64,000 bases of DNA, taken from the NCBI RefSeq assembly GCF_015207375.1, contig NZ_JADEWY010000018.1:1-64000 (forward strand), written 5' to 3'. The notes under the pieces were generated by a model. The model did no database searches. It was given only the letters and a program-made list of their open reading frames with translations, and was not told the DNA's origin. A program made the translations under genes and the position numbers. This DNA comes from Coleofasciculus sp. LEGE 07092 (lineage in GTDB: Bacteria > Cyanobacteriota > Cyanobacteriia > Cyanobacteriales > Coleofasciculaceae). How positions within the stretch are numbered: position 1 is the stretch's first letter; every line of letters begins with the position of its first letter. Positions 10,106 to 63,981 of the stretch are shown piece after piece.

Positions 10106-11371
10106 ATGGGTAGAACACACCAGACTATTCCTGTTCTGATTGAACTTGAAGATCCTAAGCAGCTTTCACCTTCCCCCCTGACCATCAGGAAGTATGATTG
10201 CTCAGTCCAACAACAAGAAGCAATAGAAGCAAGTATCAGAGCCATTGGACAAATTCAGCCCCTTATTTGTCGGGTGATTGGATACTCTGAGCCAAAAAGC
10301 AAGCGTGGTGAAATTATCGAGGTCATCTGTGGTCAGCGGCGGCACAAGGCAGCACTGAATCTTGATTTGAAGCGGATTAAGGCAATTGTCTATGGCTTCG
10401 GAGAGCTAGATGATGCCGATGTTTTAAACATTTCCTTAGCTGACAACTTGCACCATCAATCCCTCAGTCCCCTTGAAGAAGTTGAGGCAATTGTCCGGAT
10501 CATTGCCCTCCGCCTCCAGAAATCGGTACAAGATGCTGCTACCATCATTTCATCAATCCTCAACAACAACAAACTCTCTTTCTCTAACAACGTTGTTAGT
10601 CAGCTTGATGACCCAACTCAGCAAGCTCAATACCTGGCGGTGCGGCAGGTTTTTCTGTCTCACCACCTCAATCCCAAAAGCTTTAATAATCACAAACTGC
10701 CCCTGTTGTCTCTGCCGCCAGACCTCAAACTTCCCCTGGCTCAAGGCAAAATCTCAGCATCCCATGCCTTGCAATTGCGAAGAATCGGTTCTCCTGACAC
10801 CAGGCAGGCGATGCTTTTCAAAGTTTTAGATCAATCGTGGTCAAGCCGCCAACTGAATGAGCAAATTAATCAGCTTGACCCCGCTAATCTCAATAGTCGC
10901 AGCAATCCAAGAACTTATCCTAGTCCTAGAACCAGTAGTCCTAGAACCAGTAGTCCTAGAACCAGTAGTCCTAGAACCAGTAGTCCTAGAACCAGTAGTC
11001 CTAGAACCAGTAGTCCTAGAACCAGTAGTCCTAGAACCAGTAGTTCTAGAACCAGAAAGGCTACTGCTAGTAACGTATTACCAGCAACAACAGCAACTCC
11101 TACCAAGTTGCTCTCAAACGTAGTAGAAGATAAGGGGAACAAGGGTGAGAACGTCAACGCAACCCCATATCACAAAGAAGAAAACGGGCAACAGGCAGGC
11201 AAGAGGGAAGTACTTGCCGATTTTCCTTCAGCTTCTACTGTCAAAATTCAAGATATTGAGTCTCTTTTACTGAAGCTCAAGTCTGTCGAAGTGGAAAACC
11301 ATCCCTTATTGCAGCTCCAGCTACAAGAAATATATAAGCAGCTCTCCACTTTAGTCGAACAGTTATCTTAA
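10106..11371 (+). CDS. ParB-like DNA-binding protein with SPRTS repeat linker
   Basis: The 421-residue product has a ParB/Spo0J N-terminal domain: a CGQRRHKAAL segment near residue 74 replaces the canonical GERRxRA CTP-binding motif, and ADNLHHQSLSPLEE (near 113) matches the ENLxRxDLxPxE box. A helix-turn-helix region follows (about 130-230). Residues 270-316 are eight copies of SPRTS plus one variant, a likely flexible linker, and residues 365-421 form an amphipathic, probably dimerising, tail. ParB proteins load on parS sites as CTP-dependent clamps; the altered motif leaves CTP use uncertain. No parA is adjacent, unlike the parB at 23404-24318. The next gene starts 8 bases downstream. Confidence 0.75.
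   Translation: MGRTHQTIPVLIELEDPKQLSPSPLTIRKYDCSVQQQEAIEASIRAIGQIQPLICRVIGYSEPKSKRGEIIEVICGQRRHKAALNLDLKRIKAIVYGFGELDDADVLNISLADNLHHQSLSPLEEVEAIVRIIALRLQKSVQDAATIISSILNNNKLSFSNNVVSQLDDPTQQAQYLAVRQVFLSHHLNPKSFNNHKLPLLSLPPDLKLPLAQGKISASHALQLRRIGSPDTRQAMLFKVLDQSWSSRQLNEQINQLDPANLNSRSNPRTYPSPRTSSPRTSSPRTSSPRTSSPRTSSPRTSSPRTSSPRTSSSRTRKATASNVLPATTATPTKLLSNVVEDKGNKGENVNATPYHKEENGQQAGKREVLADFPSASTVKIQDIESLLLKLKSVEVENHPLLQLQLQEIYKQLSTLVEQLS
10584..10599. repeat. Palindrome CTAACAACGTTGTTAG, copy 1 (in the ParB-like gene)
   Basis: A perfect 16-bp palindrome lies inside the coding sequence and encodes NNVVS. The same 16 bp plus the following TCAG occurs twice in the relaxase gene. It falls in the helix-turn-helix region of the protein. 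Confidence 0.9.
10922..11055. repeat. Nine tandem copies of a 15-bp unit AGTCCTAGAACCAGT
   Basis: Eight perfect copies (10922-11041) are followed by one imperfect copy (AGTTCTAGAACCAG). The unit is a multiple of three and encodes SPRTS in the ParB-like protein. Perfect identity at DNA level implies recent slippage or continuing homogenisation. Confidence 0.95.
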
Positions 11372-17785: not shown

Positions 17786-18571
17786 TCAGCCCTTTGATGA
17801 GGAGCCACCAGAGCCGTTTCCCCCTTGCTTTGGGACATTGTGCTTGGCTTCGAGTGAGTCCCAGTGAGCTTGATAGATTTGCTTGTAGTCCCGGAAATCC
17901 TCTGTTGAGTGCATTACTGCCATCCGTGCCACCCGACGACGACGAATCTGGCGATTTTGCAAGTCTTTGAGTTCTACCGCCTCAAATTGCTCCTCTAGCT
18001 CAGCCTCGACCTGCTCAACTTCCTCTAGAAGTGCTTTGTCAAGGTTTTCTTGATCCTCAAACTCTGCCTTGGTTTCGTCATAGAGGGAGAGCCAATCAAA
18101 ATCAGGGCGACTCATCGGAGAAGGACTCGAGTTAATCAACCCTCCCCTGAGTGAGGGGGACTGCTCCTCTGGGTCTAGTCCCTCCTCTGGGTCTAGGTCT
18201 ACTTCCTCCAGTGAAGAGGGTTTTGATGCTAGAGCCTCAGCAGGACGAAGCTTAGAGATGTTAGCTTTCCATTCAGAATAGACACCACCAGCATCACGGA
18301 AGTCCTTCAAATCGGCTATCTGCTGCCGCACAAACTCTGTGTGTTTGCCCAGCCGCTTGAACGCTGAATAATCGAACCAGTTCCAAGCTGAGCGCACTTC
18401 TGCCGCCCATTGCCGCACTGTGCGAGTCGAGGCACCGAAGATACTCGCTAGCTCTGGGGTCGTGTACAGGTTTTCGCTAGAGAGAGCGGCAAGGGTGGCA
18501 TTCCCGCCTTTAAGCGGCACTACCTTGTTTGCCGGAAGTTCAAACTCTTGTTTAGCAAAGTTTTCAGCCAT
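17786..18571 (-). CDS. HTH DNA-binding protein, first gene of the 13.7-18.6 kb operon
   Basis: The 261-residue product has a helix-turn-helix at about 36-60 (LYTTPELASIFGASTRTVRQWAAEV), an acidic linker rich in Glu and Pro (about 115-150) and a C-terminal helical segment with an acidic run and a basic RQIRRRRVARM patch. HTH proteins of this general shape occur as plasmid regulators and as DNA adaptors. It is transcribed away from the XRE gene at 18736, and an A/T-rich divergent promoter lies between them. Autoregulation is plausible; the binding site is not known. Confidence 0.65.
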   Translation of the reverse strand: MAENFAKQEFELPANKVVPLKGGNATLAALSSENLYTTPELASIFGASTRTVRQWAAEVRSAWNWFDYSAFKRLGKHTEFVRQQIADLKDFRDAGGVYSEWKANISKLRPAEALASKPSSLEEVDLDPEEGLDPEEQSPSLRGGLINSSPSPMSRPDFDWLSLYDETKAEFEDQENLDKALLEEVEQVEAELEEQFEAVELKDLQNRQIRRRRVARMAVMHSTEDFRDYKQIYQAHWDSLEAKHNVPKQGGNGSGGSSSKG

Positions 18572-18735
18572 TTTTTAGTCTCCTTTTCGGGGTTTGCCGC
18601 TTGATTGCCATTGCTATGCCTTCAGCTTGCCGTGGCATTGCCGTGGCATTGCCATTTCGCTTCTGGTTTGATGCTAAGATTATTTTGTTCAATTGTCAAT
18701 ACAATTGTTTTTTAAAATAAACAAGAGGACGGTTA
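18572..18735. promoter_or_regulatory. Divergent promoter region with symmetrical CAATTG motifs
   Basis: Two CAATTG sites separated by TCAATA (about 18690-18707) form an inverted repeat. On the minus strand TTGACA overlaps it and is followed after 17 bases by TAGCAT, a plausible promoter for the operon to the left. Directly repeated TTGCCGTGGCA units (about 18627-18650) lie between this promoter and the ATG at 18571 and could be regulator sites. Confidence 0.5.
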
Positions 18736-19684: not shown

Positions 19685-22600
19685 ATGAAACGCCCCGATT
19701 ACATTTGTTCAGATCACTGGAACGAATGGAGAGAAAGCCAGGTCGATGCCGACATCATCGCCCTCAACGTGCGCTCCAACGTAGACCCCTATTCTTTTCT
19801 GTGCTACGGTTTACCAAAAAGTGAACGCCGCAATGATGGCAGATTGCGAGACAAGTGGATTTACCTGTATGGAAACTTAACTGAAAATTGGGCAGTGCGG
19901 GGAATTGATGTCCTCAATCTGCAATCGGAGAGTGAGTGGGGTTCGATAAAACCCGACCATCCGAGGATTGATACTAGCAAAAACAAGCCCATCAAATACG
20001 AGCATCCCGCCAGAGTTTCCACAGAAATTTTCGCCCTACGAGTCCCCCAGCACATCTGGCAGGAGATAGCTTCTCGGTGCGGTGTACCCCTGCCATCCCC
20101 CATCGAAGCCATTCATTTCTGGCAATGGGTGATTGAAAACAAAGACGTACCCCTGATCCTCACGGAAGGAGCCAAGAAAGGCGGAGCCATCCTCACTGTC
20201 GGCTATGCTTGCCTTGCCCTGCCAGGAATCTTCAACGGCTATCGTCAACAAAAAGATGCATTTGGATTCCCCACAGGCAAAACTCATCTAATCGAACAAC
20301 TGCAAGTCTTTGCCACTCCCGGCAGAAAGATTTACTTTGCCTTCGATAACGATTCTAAGCCGAGTACCCGCGCCTCCGTCAAAACCGCGATCGCTAAAAC
20401 TGCCTGGTTATTCACCCAAAAGGGCTGCCACTGCTATGTTATTGACTGGGAAGGCTACCCAGAGAAAGGGGTAGACGAACTCATCGCCGCTCACGGCGCT
20501 TCCACCTTTCACCATCAGTTTAATGAAGCCAAAAGCCTGCATCGCTGGCAGGCTATTCAATATCGCCAGCTTACCTACCCCATTAGCTTTCATCACGACC
20601 CCACCCAAAAATACCTCAGTAACTTCACCGCGCCCAGCAACGCCAAACTCATCTGCTTAAAAGCTCCAAAAGGCACAGGCAAAACCGAATGGCTGGTTAG
20701 ACAAGTGCTCAATGCCATCTATTCAGGTCAGAAAGTCCTAGTCATCAGCCATCGACGACAATTAGCACGGGCTTTATGTGAGCGCTTCGGCATCGATTAC
20801 CTAGAAGACGTTCGCACCAGCGACACCCAAGGCGTATTCGGCTACGGGCTTTGCGTTGACTCAATGCACGCTCAAAGCTTAGCAAAATTCAAGCCTGAAC
20901 AGTGGGAAAATGCCCTCATTATCATCGACGAATGTGAGCAAGTGTTCTGGCATTTGCTCAACGCCTCCACTGAAGTCAAGCGCCACCGAGTTGAAATCCT
21001 TAAAAACCTCAAAACCCTAGTCACTAACGCTCTATCCCCTGAAACAGAAGGCAAAGTTTTCTTAAGCGATGCCGATTTAAGTGACTACTCCATTGATTAC
21101 GTTATCTCTCTAGCCGGGATAAAAGTGCAGCCCTGGCTGGCGTTGCACACCTGCACCCAAGAATCGGACTGCTATGACTGCTATGTCTTTGGCGGCAACA
21201 ACCCAACGGATTTAGTTAAAGCTCTGTGCAATCATATTGAAGCCGGGGGCAAACCCATGGTCTGCTTATCCTCTCAGAAAGCTAAAAGTAAATGGAGTAC
21301 CCTCGTCCTTGAAGCTCAACTCCAGCAACTGTTCCCCGACAAACGCATCTTAAGGATTGATGCAGAATCCGTCTCAGATCCTCTCCACCCCGCCTACGGG
21401 TCAATCGCCTCTCTCAACGAGATTTTACTCAACTACGACATCGTACTAGCTAGTCCGGCGATTGAGACAGGAGTGAGTATTGATATCCGAGGACATTTTA
21501 CCTCCGTCTGGGGCATTGGTTTGGGAGTTCAGCCCGAAAATTCCTTCCGGCAATTCCTGTCTCGCCTGCGAGAAGCCGTTCCCAGATTTATCTGGCTTGC
21601 CTCCAGGGGCATCGGTAAAATCGGCAATGGTTCGACCTCAGTCAAGTCCCTGCTAGCGTCACAGCATTCCTCTGTTGCCGCCCACCTGCAACTGTTACTC
21701 ACCTGCGAATTACCTGAAGACATCAATACCAATTTCCAACCGATATCCTTAACCACTTGGGCGCGGTTCGCTGCCCGCATCAATCAGGGGATGAATGCCT
21801 ACAAAGAGTCGGTTCTAGAAGGACTCATTGAAGAAGGACATCGGATTATTCCTACAGATTCTGACCAGAACCTTCTGCCTTCTTCTGTCCAGCCGCTTCA
21901 TCAACAAATCAAAGCCACTCGCGACCAACTTTATCAGCAATATTGTCAAGACGTAACCCAAGCCCCTAACCCCGATGATAATGACTACCAGCAATTAGCA
22001 TCTAAGCGTTCCCGAACCCAACAGGAACGTATTGCCTATCATAAAGGTCAGCTTGTCCGTCGCTATGGTCTAGAAGAGTTCTCCCCTTCCCTGGTTGAGT
22101 TTGATGACGATGGCTGGTATGCCAAAATACGCCTGCATTATTTCCTGACTATGGGTAAGCCTTATCTAGAGTCAAGAGATTTAGCCGTTGCCCAGCGATA
22201 CATTCAACAGGGAGAGGGCGCTTTGTGGACTCCCGACTTTGCCTATAGCCAGTGGGGTGCGGCGGTGCGGGTGCTGGAGTTTTTGGGCATATTGGAGCTG
22301 CTTGACCCCACCCTAGAAGTCAGTAGTGTTTCTCCTACTATCGTGGAGCTGGCGCAAAAAGCCCTGCAAATATCCTGGCTGATTGAGTGCATTTTGGGTC
22401 TGAGGATTAGTGAAAAAGATACTCCCATCGCCATTGTTCAAAAGCTGCTGGGGAAGTGTGACTTAAAGCTGGAATATCTAGGACGCTACGGGTCTACCCT
22501 TGAGCGAGTTCGGGTCTATGGGGGAGTCCTGGTGAAGGATAACCGCTTTGATATTTTCCAGCAGTGGAGCCAGCGAGATAGTCTGGCGGCACAGCATCAA

Positions 22601-23403: not shown

Positions 23404-24318
23404 CTATTCTGCAGCAAGTATCGCTTCCATCTCCTCCAGCAATGCCTCTAGGCGCGATCGCTTTTTGGGATCTTCCCAAAACTTAGCTTTTTGAAGACGA
23501 CGGTATGTTGCATCCATCTGCTTCTTTAAAGGCGGCTGTTCCGGCGCTTTTTGTTCAGCCTTAATGCGCTCTTTTATCTGAGAGAGAGACAAATCTTCTT
23601 GTATAGCTGTCTCCAACAACGCGAGGCGCGATTCGGGGTCTTTCACGCGAGCGATAACCTGGGCTTTGGTGTAAGCAATCTCTCCCTTCCGCAAAGCCTC
23701 CATCACCTCTTGGGGCAGATTGAGCAGTGGCAGCCGATTCTTCACAAAAGATTCCCAGGTCATCAGCCCTAATCCAGTAAAGATGTCTTGGATGACCTGA
23801 GCTTCAGCCTTACCCATAACGTTATGCGTAACTTTTCCTTCCGTCTCATTCTGCATTCGGTGCAGAATCTTAATCGCTGCCGACGTTGACTGTCCCAGTT
23901 TGAGGGCAATGAGCTGTAAAACCCCTTCCGTCTCCTCCACCGGGTTGAGATCTTCCCGGTGGAGGTTTTCAATCAGAGCTAACTGCAAAGCCTCCTCGTC
24001 ACTCAGTTGCCGCACCACGACTGGCACATTAGTCAGTCCCACTTCTAGAGCAGCTCGGTAACGTCGTTCCCCTGCAACCAACTCATACACTCCCTCACTC
24101 AAGCGTCGTACCAACAGTGGCTCTAAGATGCCATGCTCCTTTACTGACTGCACCAACTGCTGCAACTTTTGTGGGTCAAAGTAACGTCGGGGTTGCTGTT
24201 GGGGTAACTTAATCGCCTCTATTGCCACCGATTCCCCAGTTGTTGGAGCGTCTGCAAACAAAGCATCTAGACCAAGACCTTTGATTTGGCGGTAGGGTTG
24301 ACTCACTTTAGACTTCAT
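23404..24318 (-). CDS. parB: ParB partition protein
   Basis: The 304-residue product is a standard ParB: N-terminal IPxxxQPRxxFDP-like box (IKLPQQQPRRYFDP), CTP motif GERRYRA at residues 83-89, ALIENLHREDLNPVEE at about 113-128, central HTH region and a basic helical C-terminus. Its ATG overlaps the parA stop by 4 bp. Between the ENLHRED box and the HTH an insert carries VTHNVMG, whose DNA is the palindrome CATAACGTTATG (23815-23826), at a position matching the NNVVS insert of the other ParB at 10106. ParB spreads from parS and stimulates ParA. Confidence 0.9.
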   Translation of the reverse strand: MKSKVSQPYRQIKGLGLDALFADAPTTGESVAIEAIKLPQQQPRRYFDPQKLQQLVQSVKEHGILEPLLVRRLSEGVYELVAGERRYRAALEVGLTNVPVVVRQLSDEEALQLALIENLHREDLNPVEETEGVLQLIALKLGQSTSAAIKILHRMQNETEGKVTHNVMGKAEAQVIQDIFTGLGLMTWESFVKNRLPLLNLPQEVMEALRKGEIAYTKAQVIARVKDPESRLALLETAIQEDLSLSQIKERIKAEQKAPEQPPLKKQMDATYRRLQKAKFWEDPKKRSRLEALLEEMEAILAAE

Positions 24319-25070
24319 TTCAAACCCTCCATAGCTCCAGCAATTTGCTGCAACGTGGCAAGAGCGGGATGTTTTTTGTTGTAATCTGCTAGGGGGACAT
24401 GAGCCTCAGCCGCATCGGCGAGAGCTGTAGAGCGAGGGATAGGTGGAAAGACTTTGCCAAACTGAGACATTTGCTCGTTGATCGCTTGCAAAGCTCGTAC
24501 ATCCTGGGAGTTGGATTTGGCATACATGGAGGGGACAAAGCCTGCGATTTCTAGCTGACGGTTGGCTCTCGACTTCACCCGTGCCACTGTTGAAAGGAGA
24601 AGTTCGGTGCCGCAGAAGGCTTTGTACTGAGTTTGGATGGGTACCAGGACATGAGTTGCACTCACCAAACTAATGTAACTCAGCAAACCGAGGGAAGGAG
24701 GGCAGTCAATCAGGATAAAGTCATATTGCTCGTGTACGGGCTTGAGGGCGTCCCGGAGACGGATATCCCGCATATCTGCCATTACCAGCTCTAACTCAGC
24801 ACCGCTTAATTTGATATTGGCGGGAACCAAATCCATGCCGTGAATGTTGGGGTGGATGGGTAAGGGGCGATCGGCAATCACGGAATCGTAGATAGTTTCC
24901 GTCAGCTCAGATGGTTCCAATCCCATGAAAAGTGTCAGTGACCCTTGAGGGTCTATGTCTACCAGAAGGACACGGTGCTGGCGCTGTTGTAGGTGGTAGC
25001 CGAGGTTCATCGTCAACGTACTTTTGCCCACGCCCCCCGACTGATTAAATAAGGCAATAATTCGGCTCAC
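24315..25070 (-). CDS. parA: ParA partition ATPase
   Basis: The 251-residue product is a ParA/MinD ATPase: FNQSGGVGKSTLTMNLG at 8-24, DIDPQGSLT switch I (about 38-46) and DFILIDCPPSLG (about 115-126). The deviant Walker A of ParA is normally KGGxGK; here the first, signature Lys is Ser (S11), while K16 is kept. ParA forms ATP-dependent nucleoid gradients that move ParB-bound plasmids. parA-parB is an overlapping two-gene operon convergent with rep. The 114 bases upstream would hold the promoter. Confidence 0.9.
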   Translation of the reverse strand: MSRIIALFNQSGGVGKSTLTMNLGYHLQQRQHRVLLVDIDPQGSLTLFMGLEPSELTETIYDSVIADRPLPIHPNIHGMDLVPANIKLSGAELELVMADMRDIRLRDALKPVHEQYDFILIDCPPSLGLLSYISLVSATHVLVPIQTQYKAFCGTELLLSTVARVKSRANRQLEIAGFVPSMYAKSNSQDVRALQAINEQMSQFGKVFPPIPRSTALADAAEAHVPLADYNKKHPALATLQQIAGAMEGLK

Positions 25071-41110: not shown

Positions 41111-42334
41111 CTATTCAACAGAGAGTTCTTGATGAGGAGTACGTTTAAACGGCTTTGAGTTTCGACGCCGACGGATCTGTTGGTTACGGCGTTCTACGGC
41201 GGAGTTAACGACTTTCCGGGTTAGGGCTAATCGCGTCGGATAATTAGAGTGCTTTTGAATATCTGGAGATTGAGCCACTATAATAGCCGTATCCTCGGAT
41301 TCATATCCATCCTCTAACAGCATCTGAGCGATCGCGCGATCGCGTTCTAGAAAAGATAGCGACTGCTGCTCATCAGTGAGCGATTGGCGATAATATTGAT
41401 ACTGTCGGGCGAGCTGCTCTTTCTCCTGCTCCTGACTAACAACGTTGTTAGTGACATTTGGAGACTGAGCCGCCTTATCGGGTTCATCAGTTAGCGATGA
41501 TTGATGCCCTTCTCCTGCCTGACTAACAACGTTGTTAGTCAAATTTTGCTGAAGCTGCTTATCCATTGCAGTTTGCGTATAGCGTTTGCCCAATTGGTAG
41601 CCGCCAAACCAAACGCCATCCTTTTCTAGCTTCCAGCCGTGCGGTGTGGGCTGCGCGAAGATACCTTCATGATGTAAGATTTCATCCAATTGATTGAAGT
41701 TGGTTGCCTCCGATGAGGCTATATCAAGAGCATCTTGGATTTGGCGGCGGACAGTGGGCTGAGGTGGTTGTTTGCGATCGCCTTTTTCAAACTCCCACTG
41801 CTCTTTTTCTTGGCGGTGAACTTGATACGGTGTGTCCCGGCGACGGTCAACCTGCCAGGATGAAGCAGTAGGAGTTAGATTGTAATCACGTTCCAGCTTG
41901 CGAATCGCCTCTTGTAGCCTGTACTTTGAGAAATCGGTATTCGCTCGGTTTCCCTCATCGTCGATGAGGTTGCCAACGATGTGAACGTGAGGGCGAGGTT
42001 TGCCAGAGGGGAATTCTTCATCAGTATGCAGCACGGCAACTGCTTGGTTCGCGCCCCATCCCATTTCCTCTAACAGGTCGAGGGTGAGGTCTTCCCAATC
42101 TTCTATTTTTAACTCATCCTCAGATGATGGAGATAGCGATAGGTGAAAGCAGGGCTTACTAGTACGGTAGTTGAGCGCTGCTGTGGAACGCATAGTCGCG
42201 GCGATCGCTTTGTAGTCAGGTTGGGAGTCCCATGAAACAGAAACGTTGTTGTGAATAAGCTCTGCTCCCCGTCTTCTCAACACGTACCGCAGAGTGTCAC
42301 CAAAGGACTGGGTTTGGTTGAGATTCCCAATCAT
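41111..42334 (-). CDS. MobA/VirD2-family relaxase
   Basis: The 407-residue product begins MIGNLNQTQSFGDTLRYVL, with a candidate nicking Tyr at about 17. The metal-binding HUH motif is HTDEEFPSGKPRPHVHIVGN (about 103-122). The C-terminal 180 residues are helical and Gln-rich and contain two NNVVSQ inserts. Relaxases nick oriT, stay attached to the 5' end and pilot the strand through VirD4. Its ATG overlaps the MobC-like stop by 4 bp. The presence of VirD4-like and VirB-like sets in the window indicates a self-transmissible plasmid. Confidence 0.85.
   Translation of the reverse strand: MIGNLNQTQSFGDTLRYVLRRRGAELIHNNVSVSWDSQPDYKAIAATMRSTAALNYRTSKPCFHLSLSPSSEDELKIEDWEDLTLDLLEEMGWGANQAVAVLHTDEEFPSGKPRPHVHIVGNLIDDEGNRANTDFSKYRLQEAIRKLERDYNLTPTASSWQVDRRRDTPYQVHRQEKEQWEFEKGDRKQPPQPTVRRQIQDALDIASSEATNFNQLDEILHHEGIFAQPTPHGWKLEKDGVWFGGYQLGKRYTQTAMDKQLQQNLTNNVVSQAGEGHQSSLTDEPDKAAQSPNVTNNVVSQEQEKEQLARQYQYYRQSLTDEQQSLSFLERDRAIAQMLLEDGYESEDTAIIVAQSPDIQKHSNYPTRLALTRKVVNSAVERRNQQIRRRRNSKPFKRTPHQELSVE
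41436..41451. repeat. Palindrome CTAACAACGTTGTTAG, copy 2 (in the relaxase gene)
   Basis: The perfect 16-mer extends to 18 bp of symmetry. On the coding strand it is followed by TCAG as in copy 1. It encodes NNVVSQ. Confidence 0.9.
41521..41540. repeat. Palindrome GACTAACAACGTTGTTAGTC, copy 3 (in the relaxase gene)
   Basis: A perfect 20-bp palindrome 85 bases from copy 2 encodes TNNVVSQ. A short motif QSLTDE or SSLTDE follows each of the two inserts in the protein, suggesting duplication of the segment. Confidence 0.9.
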
Positions 42335-42642
42335 CGAGCATTCACCTGCCTAGAAAACGTCTCGATCTGACGAATAAGTTTGAAAGCCGCTTCCTTTAAC
42401 TTCTCATCAGGGCAGCTTCTATTGAGCCGTCTGAGCAAAACCGAGGCGAGTCCAGTAAGCTGGCGAACTTGCCGCTTGATGTTAGCATTACCCCCGTCAA
42501 CTTTGGGAAGGCTCCGCCTCAACCCACAGCGCCGTAAATATTCAGATAAAGTTAGGGAGACTGCCTGAGCTTTACGTTGCAGTGCTTCTTTTTCTTGCAC
42601 AGAGAGTCTAAGATTAAGCTGGGATGTGCGTTCTCCTCTCAT
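42331..42642 (-). CDS. MobC-like relaxosome accessory protein
   Basis: The 103-residue product has an N-terminal ribbon-helix-helix signature (SQLNLRLSVQEKEALQRKAQAVSLTLSEYLRRCGL) and a C-terminal helical part (about 55-100) typical of MobC/MobL-like accessory proteins. These bind near oriT and help the relaxase open the DNA. The ATGA overlap with the relaxase gene supports joint expression. The phased repeats just upstream are a natural binding site. Confidence 0.75.
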   Translation of the reverse strand: MRGERTSQLNLRLSVQEKEALQRKAQAVSLTLSEYLRRCGLRRSLPKVDGGNANIKRQVRQLTGLASVLLRRLNRSCPDEKLKEAAFKLIRQIETFSRQVNAR

Positions 42643-43068
42643 GCTTTTTTTCTAATGCGCTTAACTTCCTCCACAGGTTATCAATTGAAGCGCGATCGCT
42701 CCATCTGAATACAGGCAGAATTTTGTATAGACATCGTGACTGCTTGAGGAGTAAGGTGAGGAGTTCTGCCTGTATTTGTGACTGAACAAACCGTGATGGG
42801 AGCGTGATTAAATTGTGGTTAACCGTGATTAAAACGTGGTTTTTCGGGTTCATTTTTGAGTCATTTATTAGAAAAATTAACCGGATTTAGGGAAACGTTT
42901 CACAATTTTTCACGATTAACCCCCCTAGAATCACGTTTAATCACACTCTACTCTATCTCCGGTATGAGGATGCCTAGCTACTAGAGAAAGAGGAAAAGCT
43001 CAGGACGAGTTATTTATTCTTTGATTTAGATGAAACTCGATGAAACGTCGCTTTTCAATTCAAGCTGA
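42643..43068. other. Candidate oriT/operator gap with helically phased GTGATTAA repeats
   Basis: This divergent gap lies between mobC and the adaptor-like gene. Motifs of the form YGTGRTTAA start at 42792, 42803, 42814, 42824 and 42835, i.e. every 10-11 bp. Inverse copies AATCACG and TTAATCACA end at 42935 and 42945, again 10 bp apart. The arrangement looks like a site for a cooperatively binding dimer (MobC-like RHH protein) and the usual position of oriT. A nick site could not be identified. Two GATGAAAC copies lie near 43030-43045. Confidence 0.6.
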
Positions 43069-43440
43069 ATGTCAAAGAACAAATGGTTAACCGTCAAACT
43101 AAGAGCTGACCCAGATAGTCCCTTGGGGAAGGTTATAGCAAAAGTACAAGCACAACCCTTGGGAAGCGAAAACACAGTAGTTGAGCTGCTATTTATGCAT
43201 TTTTCGGCTGAGGCATTGGATTTGCGAGACGAGCAGCAGCGTCATGTAGCCGTCCGCTATACGGAGAGATGCCTTGCCGATGCAATAGCATCCAAACGCT
43301 TGTTAGGAATTGACCCCAACCCTTATCCAATAATGATGTCTCACTCACAGCACAATGGGTCAAATTCATCACCGCCCCAGGAGCAAGAGGAGAAAGAAGG
43401 TTTCTTACTCAATCACTCTTCAGAATCAATGTTTGGATGA
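43069..43440 (+). CDS. Small protein coupled to the ParM-like gene, possible DNA adaptor
   Basis: The 123-residue product starts WLTVKLRADPDSPLGKVIAKV, a strand followed by helices compatible with an RHH-type or ParR-like adaptor, and ends with a disordered Ser/Glu tail. No clear ribosome site precedes its ATG. Its stop overlaps a possible ATG of the next gene (ATGA at 43437). By position it could link DNA to the actin-like protein, as ParR or StbA-type proteins do; this is inference. Confidence 0.5.
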   Translation: MSKNKWLTVKLRADPDSPLGKVIAKVQAQPLGSENTVVELLFMHFSAEALDLRDEQQRHVAVRYTERCLADAIASKRLLGIDPNPYPIMMSHSQHNGSNSSPPQEQEEKEGFLLNHSSESMFG

Positions 43441-43454
43441 AACAGGAGGTTAAC

Positions 43455-44642
43455 GTGGCTTCTAAAGCCGATCTAATGCTCACAGCCGACCCAGGTTCTA
43501 GCGCTTCCAAGTTTATTTACAACGTTCAAAAAAAAGAAACTCCCATTGCCTTGGCGATGTCGCCAGAAGTAGCCGTAGGAGTATCTGTATCGAGTATCAA
43601 AGCTCTCCAAAAACTCTCGATGGGGAGTACCTCACCTATCAATGACGCTTGGCTACAGATTCCTCCTGATTCAAAAAAAGCAACCGTCGTCGGCTATCTG
43701 GCTCAAGCCGAGTACCAAGGGAATGCGCGATTGGATCTGCTCAAGTACGAAGTTATCGTGCCGAAGTTCCTAGCAGCAATCGGCGCAATCGCCCAACAGC
43801 ACGATTTGGGAAATAAGTTCTCTGTCGCGATCGCTTGCTTACTTCCCTTCGGCGAGTATCCGAATAAAGATGAGCTGAAAACCCAACTCTCTAAGTCACT
43901 AGCAGATTTTGCTTTCCAAGGGTCTAGACTGTCAGTTGAGTTGGCTGATTTTGTCTGCTACCCGGAAGGAGGTGGGCTAGCCATTTATCAGCGTCAGCAA
44001 CTCGGTGACGAAGCTTTTAATAAAGCTACCATTCCGGTTGTTATGTTAGGGCATCGCAACAGCTCACTGCTGCTGTTTGAGAAAGGGAAGCTGAGTCTGC
44101 AACAGTCAACAACGACTGAAAACGGTTTTATCAACCTAGTCAAGCAGTTCTGTACGCTCACCAGTGGTCAGAGTCCATCCAATCGGTTAGTGGAGGCGAT
44201 TTACCAGGCGGGTGAGTCTCCACAGATTGATGATATCAAGCATCTGATTCGCTCTCAAGATGAAGACAATATCCAACAAGAAGCCGAATTACTTAAATCT
44301 GTCATTAAAACAGCTAGAGAGGATTACTGGCGTTCAATCAAAAATTGGTTAGATGAGGTGATGCCTTCCCGGTACTCCGAAGTATTTTTAGTCGGTGGAG
44401 TTGCCCAATATCTTAGGCAGGAGTTGACCGACTACTTCGGAGAAAAAGCACGATATTCCGACCGGATAATGGCTCAAATCCAAGAGGTCTTTCCCCAGCT
44501 CGAGCAGAGCCTCACATCTCGCTTTCTGGATGTGTTCGCTCTCTACTGCGACGTGGATGAATTTGAACCTCCCAAGCCCAAGGGAGAAAGGGAGCAACAA
44601 GCCCGTCAGGAAAAAATTAGGCAGGAATTTGCTATCAGATAG
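43455..44642 (+). CDS. ParM/StbA-like actin-family protein
   Basis: I choose GTG 43455, five bases after AGGAGG (43444-43449), over ATG 43437. The 395-residue product has phosphate-1 motif DPGSSASKF (residues 12-20), a hinge/adenosine motif FLVGGVAQYL (about 335-345) and overall actin-fold spacing. The phosphate-2 motif, normally DIGxxTTD, is VVMLGHRNSS (about 195-204) and lacks the Asp. Plasmid actins push or position plasmid copies as ATP-driven filaments. It is followed by a ParA-like ATPase, so the plasmid carries both filament and ParA-type systems in one operon. Confidence 0.75.
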   Translation: MASKADLMLTADPGSSASKFIYNVQKKETPIALAMSPEVAVGVSVSSIKALQKLSMGSTSPINDAWLQIPPDSKKATVVGYLAQAEYQGNARLDLLKYEVIVPKFLAAIGAIAQQHDLGNKFSVAIACLLPFGEYPNKDELKTQLSKSLADFAFQGSRLSVELADFVCYPEGGGLAIYQRQQLGDEAFNKATIPVVMLGHRNSSLLLFEKGKLSLQQSTTTENGFINLVKQFCTLTSGQSPSNRLVEAIYQAGESPQIDDIKHLIRSQDEDNIQQEAELLKSVIKTAREDYWRSIKNWLDEVMPSRYSEVFLVGGVAQYLRQELTDYFGEKARYSDRIMAQIQEVFPQLEQSLTSRFLDVFALYCDVDEFEPPKPKGEREQQARQEKIRQEFAIR

Positions 44643-44690: not shown

Positions 44691-45479
44691 ATGGGAACGA
44701 TTCATCTGTGCGATTCAGAAAAAGGTGGTGCTGGGAAGTCTCTTTGGTGTCGCGTACTGTGCCAATACTTTATTGATGAGGGCAAAGAGTTTAAACTTGT
44801 CGAATGCGATCGCTCGAACGCTGACGTAATTGCCCACTACAACGATATTGACGCGGAGTTTGCCGTTTTCTCGGAAGACAGACGCCGATATGCTGAAGGC
44901 GATACCCTCTTCAATGCTGCCACTTCTAAAGATGTAATCGTTAATTTGCCTGCTCAAGTGCGAATCCCATTTGATAACTGGCTTGAACAAGGCGATATCC
45001 TTTCAATCGCTTTGGATGTCGATATCCAGTTTGTCAAGTGGTTTCTGGTAACGGGGGGAGTAGACAGCATCGAGCTATTTAAGGATTCATTCAGGAAGTG
45101 GGGGAAGCAAATCCCCCATGTCATGGTCAAGAATTTATACATGGCAAACTCAGATGAATGGCAGGGGATTTTAGAAGACGATCAGGAGTTGAGAGAGATT
45201 CACTCCAAAATTCCTTCAGTCTTATTCCCCCGCTTTCCTTTCGGGGAACGAAACAAAGTTGATAGATTAAGGATGCGCTTTGATGAAGCCCTTTCCTCCG
45301 CAGAATTTCCCTTAATTTCCCAATCGCGAATCAAGCGATTTCTTAACGGTTGCTATGGGGAAATAGAAAAGTCAAAAATCTTTAAAGAGGATAAGAAAGG
45401 AACATCGGCATCGGCTTCTTCTTCCCCGTCCCAGAAAAACGAAAAAGAGCAGGAACCCGAAGAAGTCACCGCCGGATAG
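44691..45479 (+). CDS. ParA/StbB-like P-loop ATPase
   Basis: The 262-residue product has a deviant Walker A EKGGAGKS (about 10-17) with the signature Lys, and a LVECDRSNAD switch region (about 36-45). The rest is less ParA-like, which fits the StbB/VirC1-type ATPases that sit next to mobilisation genes and link plasmid segregation to conjugation. AATGGAGG lies ten bases before the ATG. Its C-terminal 35 residues are Ser/Glu/Lys-rich and disordered. Partner probably the upstream actin-like protein or the downstream membrane protein. Confidence 0.7.
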   Translation: MGTIHLCDSEKGGAGKSLWCRVLCQYFIDEGKEFKLVECDRSNADVIAHYNDIDAEFAVFSEDRRRYAEGDTLFNAATSKDVIVNLPAQVRIPFDNWLEQGDILSIALDVDIQFVKWFLVTGGVDSIELFKDSFRKWGKQIPHVMVKNLYMANSDEWQGILEDDQELREIHSKIPSVLFPRFPFGERNKVDRLRMRFDEALSSAEFPLISQSRIKRFLNGCYGEIEKSKIFKEDKKGTSASASSSPSQKNEKEQEPEEVTAG

Positions 45480-45563: not shown

Positions 45564-46103
45564 ATGAGCCGTGAAAAGGGGACTCTGTTGGAGAGTGCGC
45601 TTGAAGGTCTTGACCTATCAACAAAATCCAAAATCCATCAAATGGCGAGAGAGTATCAACTCTCAAACGATGACCCACTCTTTGTCGTTTTAGCGGCAAC
45701 CGGACGGCTAGAAGTATTGGTTGAGCAAGCTCCGGCGACGTGGGACAAGCATTTTCAGGAGTATGTGGATAAGCTTGATGAGTGGTATTCTTCTCACTCC
45801 GAAATACTCAAGCAATGGGAAAATGAAAGCCAAGAGCGTATCAAGGCTAAGATAGCTGAAGCTGTATCGGATTTAATAAAACTCGCTCAACAGAAAGAGC
45901 AACAAAAGCAGGGGAAAATATTGATTTCTAAATCCAATTTGGGAACGCTTATCGGGGTGTCTAGCGTTTTTGGGGCGCTTATTGTGTTTTTCTTAGTCCG
46001 CCTCTTTCCGGTTCAAGACTCTTTGAAAAATCTCAACGGGAGACTCAACAATACAGATATCCGACTCGAACGGATCGAGAAACATCTAGGGATATCAAAG
46101 TGA
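45564..46103 (+). CDS. Membrane-anchored helical protein (DUF6753-like)
   Basis: The 179-residue product has an N-terminal globular region (KIHQMAREYQLSNDDPLFVVLAATGRLEVLVEQAP), a central coiled coil (about 60-115), one membrane span (about 130-150) and a short coiled C-terminal tail. From memory this looks like the DUF6753 proteins of cyanobacterial plasmids; I cannot verify it. AAGGAAGTAGC precedes the ATG. It may anchor the ATPases to the membrane near the transfer channel. Confidence 0.55.
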   Translation: MSREKGTLLESALEGLDLSTKSKIHQMAREYQLSNDDPLFVVLAATGRLEVLVEQAPATWDKHFQEYVDKLDEWYSSHSEILKQWENESQERIKAKIAEAVSDLIKLAQQKEQQKQGKILISKSNLGTLIGVSSVFGALIVFFLVRLFPVQDSLKNLNGRLNNTDIRLERIEKHLGISK

Positions 46104-62342: not shown

Positions 62343-62688
62343 GGATTGATTGGGTGTAGCTACCAGCTCTTGATTATCCTAGTTGTTGGTAAGCCCCTTT
62401 TCCAATAGGTTTTAGGTCGAATGGCACGCTCCTTAAGGAGTTTGTCGTAAGCGCTATCTTCGCTTCTGGCACTAAAGTGCCGACTACGAACCTATGTTAA
62501 GGCAGGTTTGTTGGGTTTCGACTTCGCTCAACCCAACCTACAATTTTTCTTAACCGAGCAGTATTGCCTACCACCTCACAAACGGTTGGAAATCCCCCTT
62601 TCTTACTGCCTGCCATAGTGGAGTCAACTCTACACCGAATGTCAATATGTCAGGCTTAGTAGTCACACCAATCAAGAGAGGATGCCGA
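62343..62688. other. Divergent gap with two dispersed-repeat hairpins
   Basis: GGCACT-AA-AGTGCC (62468-62481) and GTTGGGTT/AACCCAAC with a 12-base loop (62510-62537), followed by CAATTTTTCTT, look like common cyanobacterial REP-type hairpins; the second could end transcription on the plus strand. No gene is visible apart from the leader of the Csx3 gene. Confidence 0.6.
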
Positions 62689-63981
62689 ATGACGACTTAT
62701 TCAATGGAAGTTGAAGGCGATACCCTGAGAGTGGATTTTGCCAAAACCGCTGAAGGGGAGCCGATTCCGGCGGATGGCGATGGGGTGGTGCGAGATGTAC
62801 ACACTCAGGTGAGGCAAATGATTGCTTCTGGAGAACTCACAGGGGGAACTCTGCTCAAGATTGATGGGCGGATTTCAGTCGGGGCTAGTTATACGCTCTC
62901 TCATGAGGTGGTACATCTGTATCGAGCCGTTGCGGTTGCGGATACACGGTTGGGGGCGTATGTGGTGGTTAGCAGTACGACACAGGAGTATCCCTTGGGT
63001 AGCCGCATTGATTTTCAGAGCGGGGATGTGACTGAGGTGAAGAGTTCGGCTGAGTTATCTGTACCTTCATTTTTGATCCGTTGGGAAGGGGATGTCTTGA
63101 GAGTACAGATTAATCATGCGGTGCAAGTAGACGGCGATCAAATTGTTCGCGATGCCAAAGCGCAGTTACAGCAGTTAATGAATTCGGGGCAGTTGCCAGG
63201 GGGGAAACTCCTCAAAATCAATGGGCGTTCAACGGTGTTAGCGTCTTTTGTCCTAGCACTGGAACTGGCTCACTACTACAGTGCGATTGCGGTATTTGAT
63301 CCGAAAATTGGCGATCGCGGGTTAGACCGCTATATTGTCACCATTAGTCATACTCCAGAATACCAGGTGGGGGACACGATTGATATGGAGCGTGACCCTT
63401 GCCAGACGGTGAAAGTGGTGCTGTGTGGTCCTCCGAATACGGGAAAAACGGTGTTTCGGGATGGGTTGAAAGAGGCAATTCTGGAACGAGACGATGCTCC
63501 CCAGGACTTTTACAGCATTTCCGGTTGCCCAGATGGAGATGGTTGCTGGTTTTCAGAAACAGCACAGAAGTATCCGGAGTTCGCTCGACAGTTAAAAGCA
63601 GAGTATAAGCGTCAGTTTACACCGGAATTCGCCGTTGCCAAAGCGCGAGATATTCGGGTGAATAAGAACTCGTTGTTACTGTTTGATGTGGGGGGCAAGA
63701 TGAGTCCAGAGAATGAGTTAATTATGGCTCAGGCAACCCATGCTGTGATTTTAGCGAAGTCGGAATTAGACGTGATTGAGTGGCAAGGGTTTTGTCAAAA
63801 ACTTAACTTACCTGTGATTGCTATTATCTATAGCGATATTGATGCTACAACCGATGAGATTCAAAGGGAATCCCCTCAGTTGATTGGCACGGTTCACCAA
63901 CTGATCCGGGGTGAATTGGTGAAAAATCGTCCTGTGATTCAAGCGTTGGCGAAGCAGTTAGTTGAGTTAGTGAATAGGTAA
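62689..63981 (+). CDS. Tandem Csx3 (Crn3 ring-nuclease-like) protein with C-terminal P-loop domain
   Basis: I start at ATG 62689 (MTTYSMEV) with GAGAGGA upstream; a longer frame reaches 62647. The 430-residue product has two Csx3-like domains, about 1-110 (LKIDGRISVGASY, VADTRLGAYVVVSSTTQEYPLG) and 125-235 (LKINGRSTVLASF, FDPKIG, RYIVTISHTPEYQVGD). A P-loop domain follows with GPPNTGKT near 250 and LLLFDVGGKM near 345. Csx3 proteins cleave cyclic tetra-adenylate made by type III CRISPR complexes, switching the response off; fusions to AAA-type domains are known. It implies a type III system beyond the right edge. Confidence 0.75.
   Translation: MTTYSMEVEGDTLRVDFAKTAEGEPIPADGDGVVRDVHTQVRQMIASGELTGGTLLKIDGRISVGASYTLSHEVVHLYRAVAVADTRLGAYVVVSSTTQEYPLGSRIDFQSGDVTEVKSSAELSVPSFLIRWEGDVLRVQINHAVQVDGDQIVRDAKAQLQQLMNSGQLPGGKLLKINGRSTVLASFVLALELAHYYSAIAVFDPKIGDRGLDRYIVTISHTPEYQVGDTIDMERDPCQTVKVVLCGPPNTGKTVFRDGLKEAILERDDAPQDFYSISGCPDGDGCWFSETAQKYPEFARQLKAEYKRQFTPEFAVAKARDIRVNKNSLLLFDVGGKMSPENELIMAQATHAVILAKSELDVIEWQGFCQKLNLPVIAIIYSDIDATTDEIQRESPQLIGTVHQLIRGELVKNRPVIQALAKQLVELVNR

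Follow-up and report, generated by a model that had tools for sequence, protein, structure and literature searches.

A run of short, helically phased repeats in Coleofasciculus sp. LEGE 07092 raises the question of whether it forms a transfer origin or the centromere of a plasmid segregation system. The repeats lie beside genes of both kinds, and a first-pass annotation had placed them at the putative transfer origin. We analyzed them in a window of 64,000 nucleotides, meaning the whole stretch of DNA under study (positions 1 to 64,000 of contig NZ_JADEWY010000018.1), to which all coordinates refer unless another contig is named.

The five YGTGRTKRR-type motifs previously listed at 42792, 42803, 42814, 42824, and 42835 were all borne out at these starts; the core of the fifth (CGTGGTTTT) fits the pattern, but its last two bases do not. 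The direct array consists of five 11-bp units at 42790–42843 on the plus strand (ACCGTGATGGG, AGCGTGATTAA, ATTGTGGTTAA, ACCGTGATTAA, and AACGTGGTTTT), spaced by 11, 11, 10, and 11 bp (mean pitch about 10.75 bp) and with the cores CGTGAT, CGTGAT, TGTGGT, CGTGAT, and CGTGGT, in that order. With spacing limited to 10–11 bp, a chain search gave the array a score of 16.0; none of 1000 dinucleotide-preserving shuffles exceeded 13.0, and the control periods of 6–9 and 12–17 bp gave chain scores of at most 9.6. A weight matrix built from the five direct units was then used to scan 127,980 positions of the window. On the opposite strand it scored four units of an inverted array (42896–42947, minus strand), namely 42906–42916 (rank 162), 42916–42926 (rank 216), 42927–42937 (rank 21), and 42937–42947 (rank 3), with spacings of 10, 11, and 10 bp, to which a weak fifth unit at 42896–42906 can be added. 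Taken together, the inverted units scored higher than each of 2000 shuffles; a search for a second direct array at this site found none. The two inverse copies annotated earlier at 42928–42945 are present, but their number was understated, as further in-phase units start at 42916, 42906, and, weakly, 42896. Instead of five plus two copies, the feature comprises two arrays of about five units each, arranged as mirror images on either side of a core of about 52 bp (42844–42895, unstranded). By its position, and by analogy with R1 parC, the core may hold the promoter of the operon; a sigma-70 consensus scan of the core found none.

The gene matches on both sides confirmed the setting of the array, in the gap that separates mobC-relaxase from a divergently oriented segregation operon. 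The minus strand encodes a MobA/VirD2-type relaxase of 407 amino acids (41111–42334; PF03432, E 3e-24) and a NikA/MobC-like relaxosome protein of 103 amino acids (42331–42642; PF21983, E 8e-13). The plus-strand operon encodes a ParR-like adaptor of 123 amino acids (43069–43440), a ParM/StbA-family actin-like ATPase of 401 amino acids (43437–44642), a TraL/MobD/StbB-like ParA-type ATPase of 262 amino acids with the motif KGGAGKS (44691–45479; TraL-like, E 3e-11), and a DUF6753 protein (45564–46103; E 3e-20), the gene of which is the last conserved one of the operon in relatives. The assignment of ParM is based on tblastn, profile, and Pfam matches: tblastn found matches in 117 plasmid records, the best of which are annotated as ParM/StbA, among PDB structures the family profile matched CorM (E 2e-20), Cbc-ParM, and Alp12, and in Pfam family members match ALP_N. 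The operon contains an actin-like ParM gene, as type II (ParMRC) partition loci do, and it has repeats upstream, as expected of a type II centromere and in a pattern common to its relatives. In most characterized type II systems, the centromere repeats measure 10–20 bp. At the same time, an ATPase of the StbB/TraL/MobD type encoded in an operon divergent from MOB genes is the arrangement of R388 stb, and TraL/MobD is related to StbB (PMC3098194). Two further ParM paralogues were seen in the same genome, at G000:C39:34376-35329 (L003) and G000:C68:4063-5013 (L002); L003 has its own array of a different sequence (TTTCCCT), while none was found at L002.

Whether the repeats belong with the partition genes or with the mobilization genes was assessed in relatives. 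We fetched 44 genome loci with a homologous parM, in addition to annotated plasmids, and 43 of the loci had enough upstream sequence for the array test, in which an array was called when at least four units with 10–11-bp spacing lay within 450 bp upstream of parM. The order relaxase-mobC, gap, parM-parR-traL-DUF6753 is conserved among the relatives, with all four operon genes present in 33 of the 44 loci. By this test, 28 of 43 relatives have a phased array upstream of parM (p <= 0.005 by shuffling), and the other 15 lack a clear one. The score of the upstream segment was higher than that of every other 450-bp segment of the same locus in 33 of the 43. These loci, mostly from Nostocales, include close relatives of one another and therefore do not amount to 43 independent tests. 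According to a second scan, most of the 28 array loci have two arrays flanking a core of 50–65 bp, with, for example, 4+8, 5+6, or 8+8 units (typically 3–5 and 8), a layout like that published for R1 parC. That two flanking arrays accompany parM in these relatives was, like the repeats, the ParM homology, and the conserved gene module, observed directly. The repeat sequences are lineage-specific (GTGGCGT, TGGATCT, GTGACCA, TTGGGAT, and TCCAAAA), and such differences between lineages are as expected for ParR specificity.

The main alternative is that the array is an accessory part of oriT, to which the MobC/NikA-like protein would bind, building the relaxosome and repressing the mobC-relaxase operon. 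The array is about 150 bp away from mobC, and NikA-like proteins bind DNA through a ribbon-helix-helix fold. Against this, arrays in the relatives track parM, being present with a MOBP relaxase, with a MOBF relaxase, or without any relaxase within 5 kb; in L005, with three genes intervening between mobC and parM, the array is found at parM. Among the closest relaxase relatives, L024, L032, and L033 have clear arrays in one orientation beside parM, and 10-bp repeats were seen by eye in a fourth (L097). Moreover, five out of seven relaxase loci without parM showed no clear array, one showed a weak three-unit run (p 0.02), and one a strong array. The difference between 28 of 43 parM loci and one of seven parM-less loci gave a p value of 0.03 in Fisher's exact test, which ignores the relatedness of the loci.

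The single strong exception, plasmid p1 of Planktothrix pseudagardhii (L085; NZ_LR882968.1), is the best argument for a MobC-bound site. Among the plasmid matches, its relaxase is the one with the best E-value (37% identity). Mirror-image phased arrays lie about 150 bp from mobC, one with four direct TTTGAG units spaced by 11 bp and the other with inverted CTCAA units at intervals of 21 bp; this is the only mirror-image pair noticed besides that of the window. No parM was detected on the record. The DNA after this array contains a fragment resembling an integrase N-terminus (weak, E 0.046), so it is possible that the par operon has been lost there. Taken with the distribution in the other relatives, binding by MobC as the role of the array is unlikely. 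In related plasmids L087–L090, which have no parM, an HTH-like gene was seen beside mobC-relaxase at the corresponding place, followed in L089 and L090 by a mobD-like or similarly placed gene and then a DUF6753 gene; these loci resemble an stb-like operon without the actin and without clear arrays.

The same comparison points to where the transfer origin itself may be. In MOBP relatives, a conserved nic-like motif, [AG]GCTTGCT, is found outside the arrays, in the stretch that separates them from mobC, and it would be the better nic candidate. In the window, a partial match (TGCTTG) is found at about 42740, again outside the arrays, and it is enclosed by a perfect 13-bp inverted repeat (AATACAGGCAGAA / TTCTGCCTGTATT). 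This region between mobC and the array (42708–42776, unstranded) is our candidate oriT, although nic was not located. Since the arrays track parM, most parM-less loci lack an array, and the nic-like motif is outside, oriT is probably adjacent to the array and not identical with it. The first-pass annotation was therefore nearly right about the location, but a transfer origin as the function of the array is unsupported, since arrays travel with parM and not with relaxase type. Its other suggestion, a cooperatively bound and autoregulated operator of the segregation operon, fits well, as parC sites are exactly such operators.

Operons of type II partition loci also encode a small DNA-binding adaptor of the ribbon-helix-helix type, ParR. 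In relatives, the product of the gene following parM begins with a strand, continues with helices and a low-complexity linker, and has a C-terminal motif of the D/E-M-F type. In the window there is no gene between parM and traL, and 43069 instead precedes parM. The sequence evidence for its product is weak: with a profile of the relatives' ParR, it gave an HMM E-value of 0.03, the best of the 295 ORFs of the window and above 200 shuffles, and hhalign, run with two different alignments, gave E-values of 8e-5 (61% probability) and 1e-3 (20% probability). The order of its elements is the same as in the relatives' ParR, with an extended N-terminal strand, three helices, an acidic linker, and a C-terminal SMFG. 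AlphaFold monomer models, of modest confidence, gave both 43069 and the Leptolyngbyaceae homologue L080 an extended segment followed by three helices. Foldseek and VIA-align searches of the PDB retrieved no ParR and no ribbon-helix-helix protein for either 43069 or a relative's ParR. No relatives of 43069 were found outside the window's own genome (tblastn against PLSDB; 388 genomes), and its identity therefore rests on its position, the weak profile match, and the predicted secondary structure. On these grounds, we regard 43069 as a putative ParR with moderate confidence.

A StbA-like identity of 43069 was not supported. As the test set, we used the StbA-position HTH proteins of related plasmids without parM in place of R388 StbA itself, and the score of 43069 was within the shuffles. 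This bears on a second alternative, in which the array would be a site like the R388 stbDRs, serving mainly to balance stability against conjugation with a StbA-like binder and the TraL/StbB ATPase as its partner. The position beside the MOB genes is the same and the operon has an stbB-type gene; the stbDRs are two groups of five 9-bp repeats separated by 2-bp spacers (PMC3098194), and the related parM-less cyanobacterial plasmids have an HTH gene before mobD and DUF6753 at this place. However, in addition to 43069 being unlike those HTH proteins, an actin-like ParM is present here and absent from stb systems, and the HTH-gene loci L087, L088, and L090 have no array, L089 having only a weak three-unit run. 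We consider an stbDR-like site very unlikely.

The contig as a whole also has genes for a coupling protein, for proteins with a weak likeness to TrbI and TraC, and for a type I ParA/ParB pair at 23404–25070. Because of these and the ParMRC operon, the contig is probably a conjugative plasmid with two partition systems; an overlap between its ends that would mark a circular plasmid was looked for and not found. A further ParB-like protein was seen on the same contig at 10106–11371, and a protein with a Cas_csx3 domain at 62647–63981, near the contig end. A second phased array, with about six 11-bp units around TTGCC(GTGGCA), was observed at 18594–18655 between the divergent ORFs 17786–18571 (minus strand) and 18736 (plus strand), near a DUF3854/helicase gene at 19685; it could represent replication iterons or another operator. 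The separate ParAB system would leave room for a third alternative, that the array by 43069 is a transcriptional operator of its operon with no role in segregation, its phasing reflecting cooperative repression. The array surrounds a likely promoter, and parC sites double as operators. Nevertheless, two multi-unit arrays (5+5 here) exceed the needs of a simple operator and match the layout of parC next to ParM, which makes a purely regulatory site highly improbable.

Among known systems, R1 parC consists of two sets of five 11-bp repeats, and that of pB171 of 10-bp repeats (PMC9426499, PMC4949242). Like R1 parMRC, the locus has two sets of five one-turn repeats around a core, upstream of an operon for an actin-like ParM and a small adaptor. 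Unlike in R1, where same-orientation arrays flank the promoter, the second set is inverted here, the ParR-like gene comes before parM, genes for a TraL/StbB-type ATPase and DUF6753 are added, and the relaxase genes adjoin. R388 stbABC/stbDRs and RP4 traKLM resemble the locus in being divergent from the MOB genes beside oriT and in having repeats in front of three or four operon genes, one of them for a ParA-type ATPase (StbB/TraL/MobD). The locus differs from them in that its putative repeat-binding gene is unlike StbA and that it encodes an actin-like ParM. Another likeness is to other cyanobacterial ParM-ParR plasmid modules ("ParM/StbA family protein"), which have a homologous ParM (about 33–45% identity), the same neighbors, and double phased arrays; there, in contrast, parM precedes parR and both arrays usually run in one direction. 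The cyanobacterial actin-like proteins FcmBC and CorM belong to the same wider actin family. FcmBC is distant, however, with the FcmB model giving 34 bits against a cut-off of 300, and fcmBC is chromosomal and controls cell shape. FcmB originated from plasmid partitioning systems (PMC12645912).

We conclude that the array is most likely the parC-type centromere of an actin-driven plasmid segregation system, predicted to be bound by ParR, to act as an autoregulated operator, and to lie beside oriT. Dimers of 43069 would bind cooperatively, one unit per helical turn, on both arrays and wrap the DNA into a segrosome. The complex would repress its own promoter in the core, and the C-terminal peptide of 43069 may capture filaments of ParM (43437), which would move sister plasmids apart. 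Points against a parC site are the weak link between 43069 and ParR, Planktothrix p1, the inverted second array, the 15 of 43 relatives without a clear array, and the extra ParA/ParB pair.

As the site adjoins oriT and the operon carries a TraL/StbB-type ATPase, segregation and conjugative transfer are probably coordinated here; the placement of ParMRC and TraL/StbB next to oriT suggests such a coupling. ParM and ParR of R1 also stimulate the R1 relaxase (PMC4949242), and in R388 the balance between stability and transfer is set by StbA, bound to the repeats, and by the ATPase StbB (PMC3098194). A more speculative idea, which we find doubtful but worth stating, is that of a combined partition-transfer site: across cyanobacterial conjugative plasmids, ParMR would have replaced StbA in an stb-type operon next to oriT, with ParM filaments and the TraL/StbB ATPase choosing between inheritance and transfer. 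If so, ParR would be loaded onto the mirror-image parC as two opposing arcs, and ParMRC, with a separate ParAB pair also present on the contig, would be free to serve in positioning linked to transfer.

A type II centromere is of a known kind, and no description of parC-type arrays in cyanobacterial plasmids was found in a search of open-access literature. What appears to be undescribed is the conserved cyanobacterial module and, in the present locus, the inverted second array and the parR-first order. This widely conserved module, comprising relaxase-mobC, oriT, a double parC array, parM-parR, TraL/StbB, and DUF6753, brings segregation and conjugation machinery together on one site in a phylum whose plasmid maintenance has been little studied. 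The work on R1 and R388 suggests cross-talk between segregation and conjugation, which the module makes testable, and the lineage-specific repeats offer a way to predict which of the many plasmids sharing a cyanobacterial cell are compatible.
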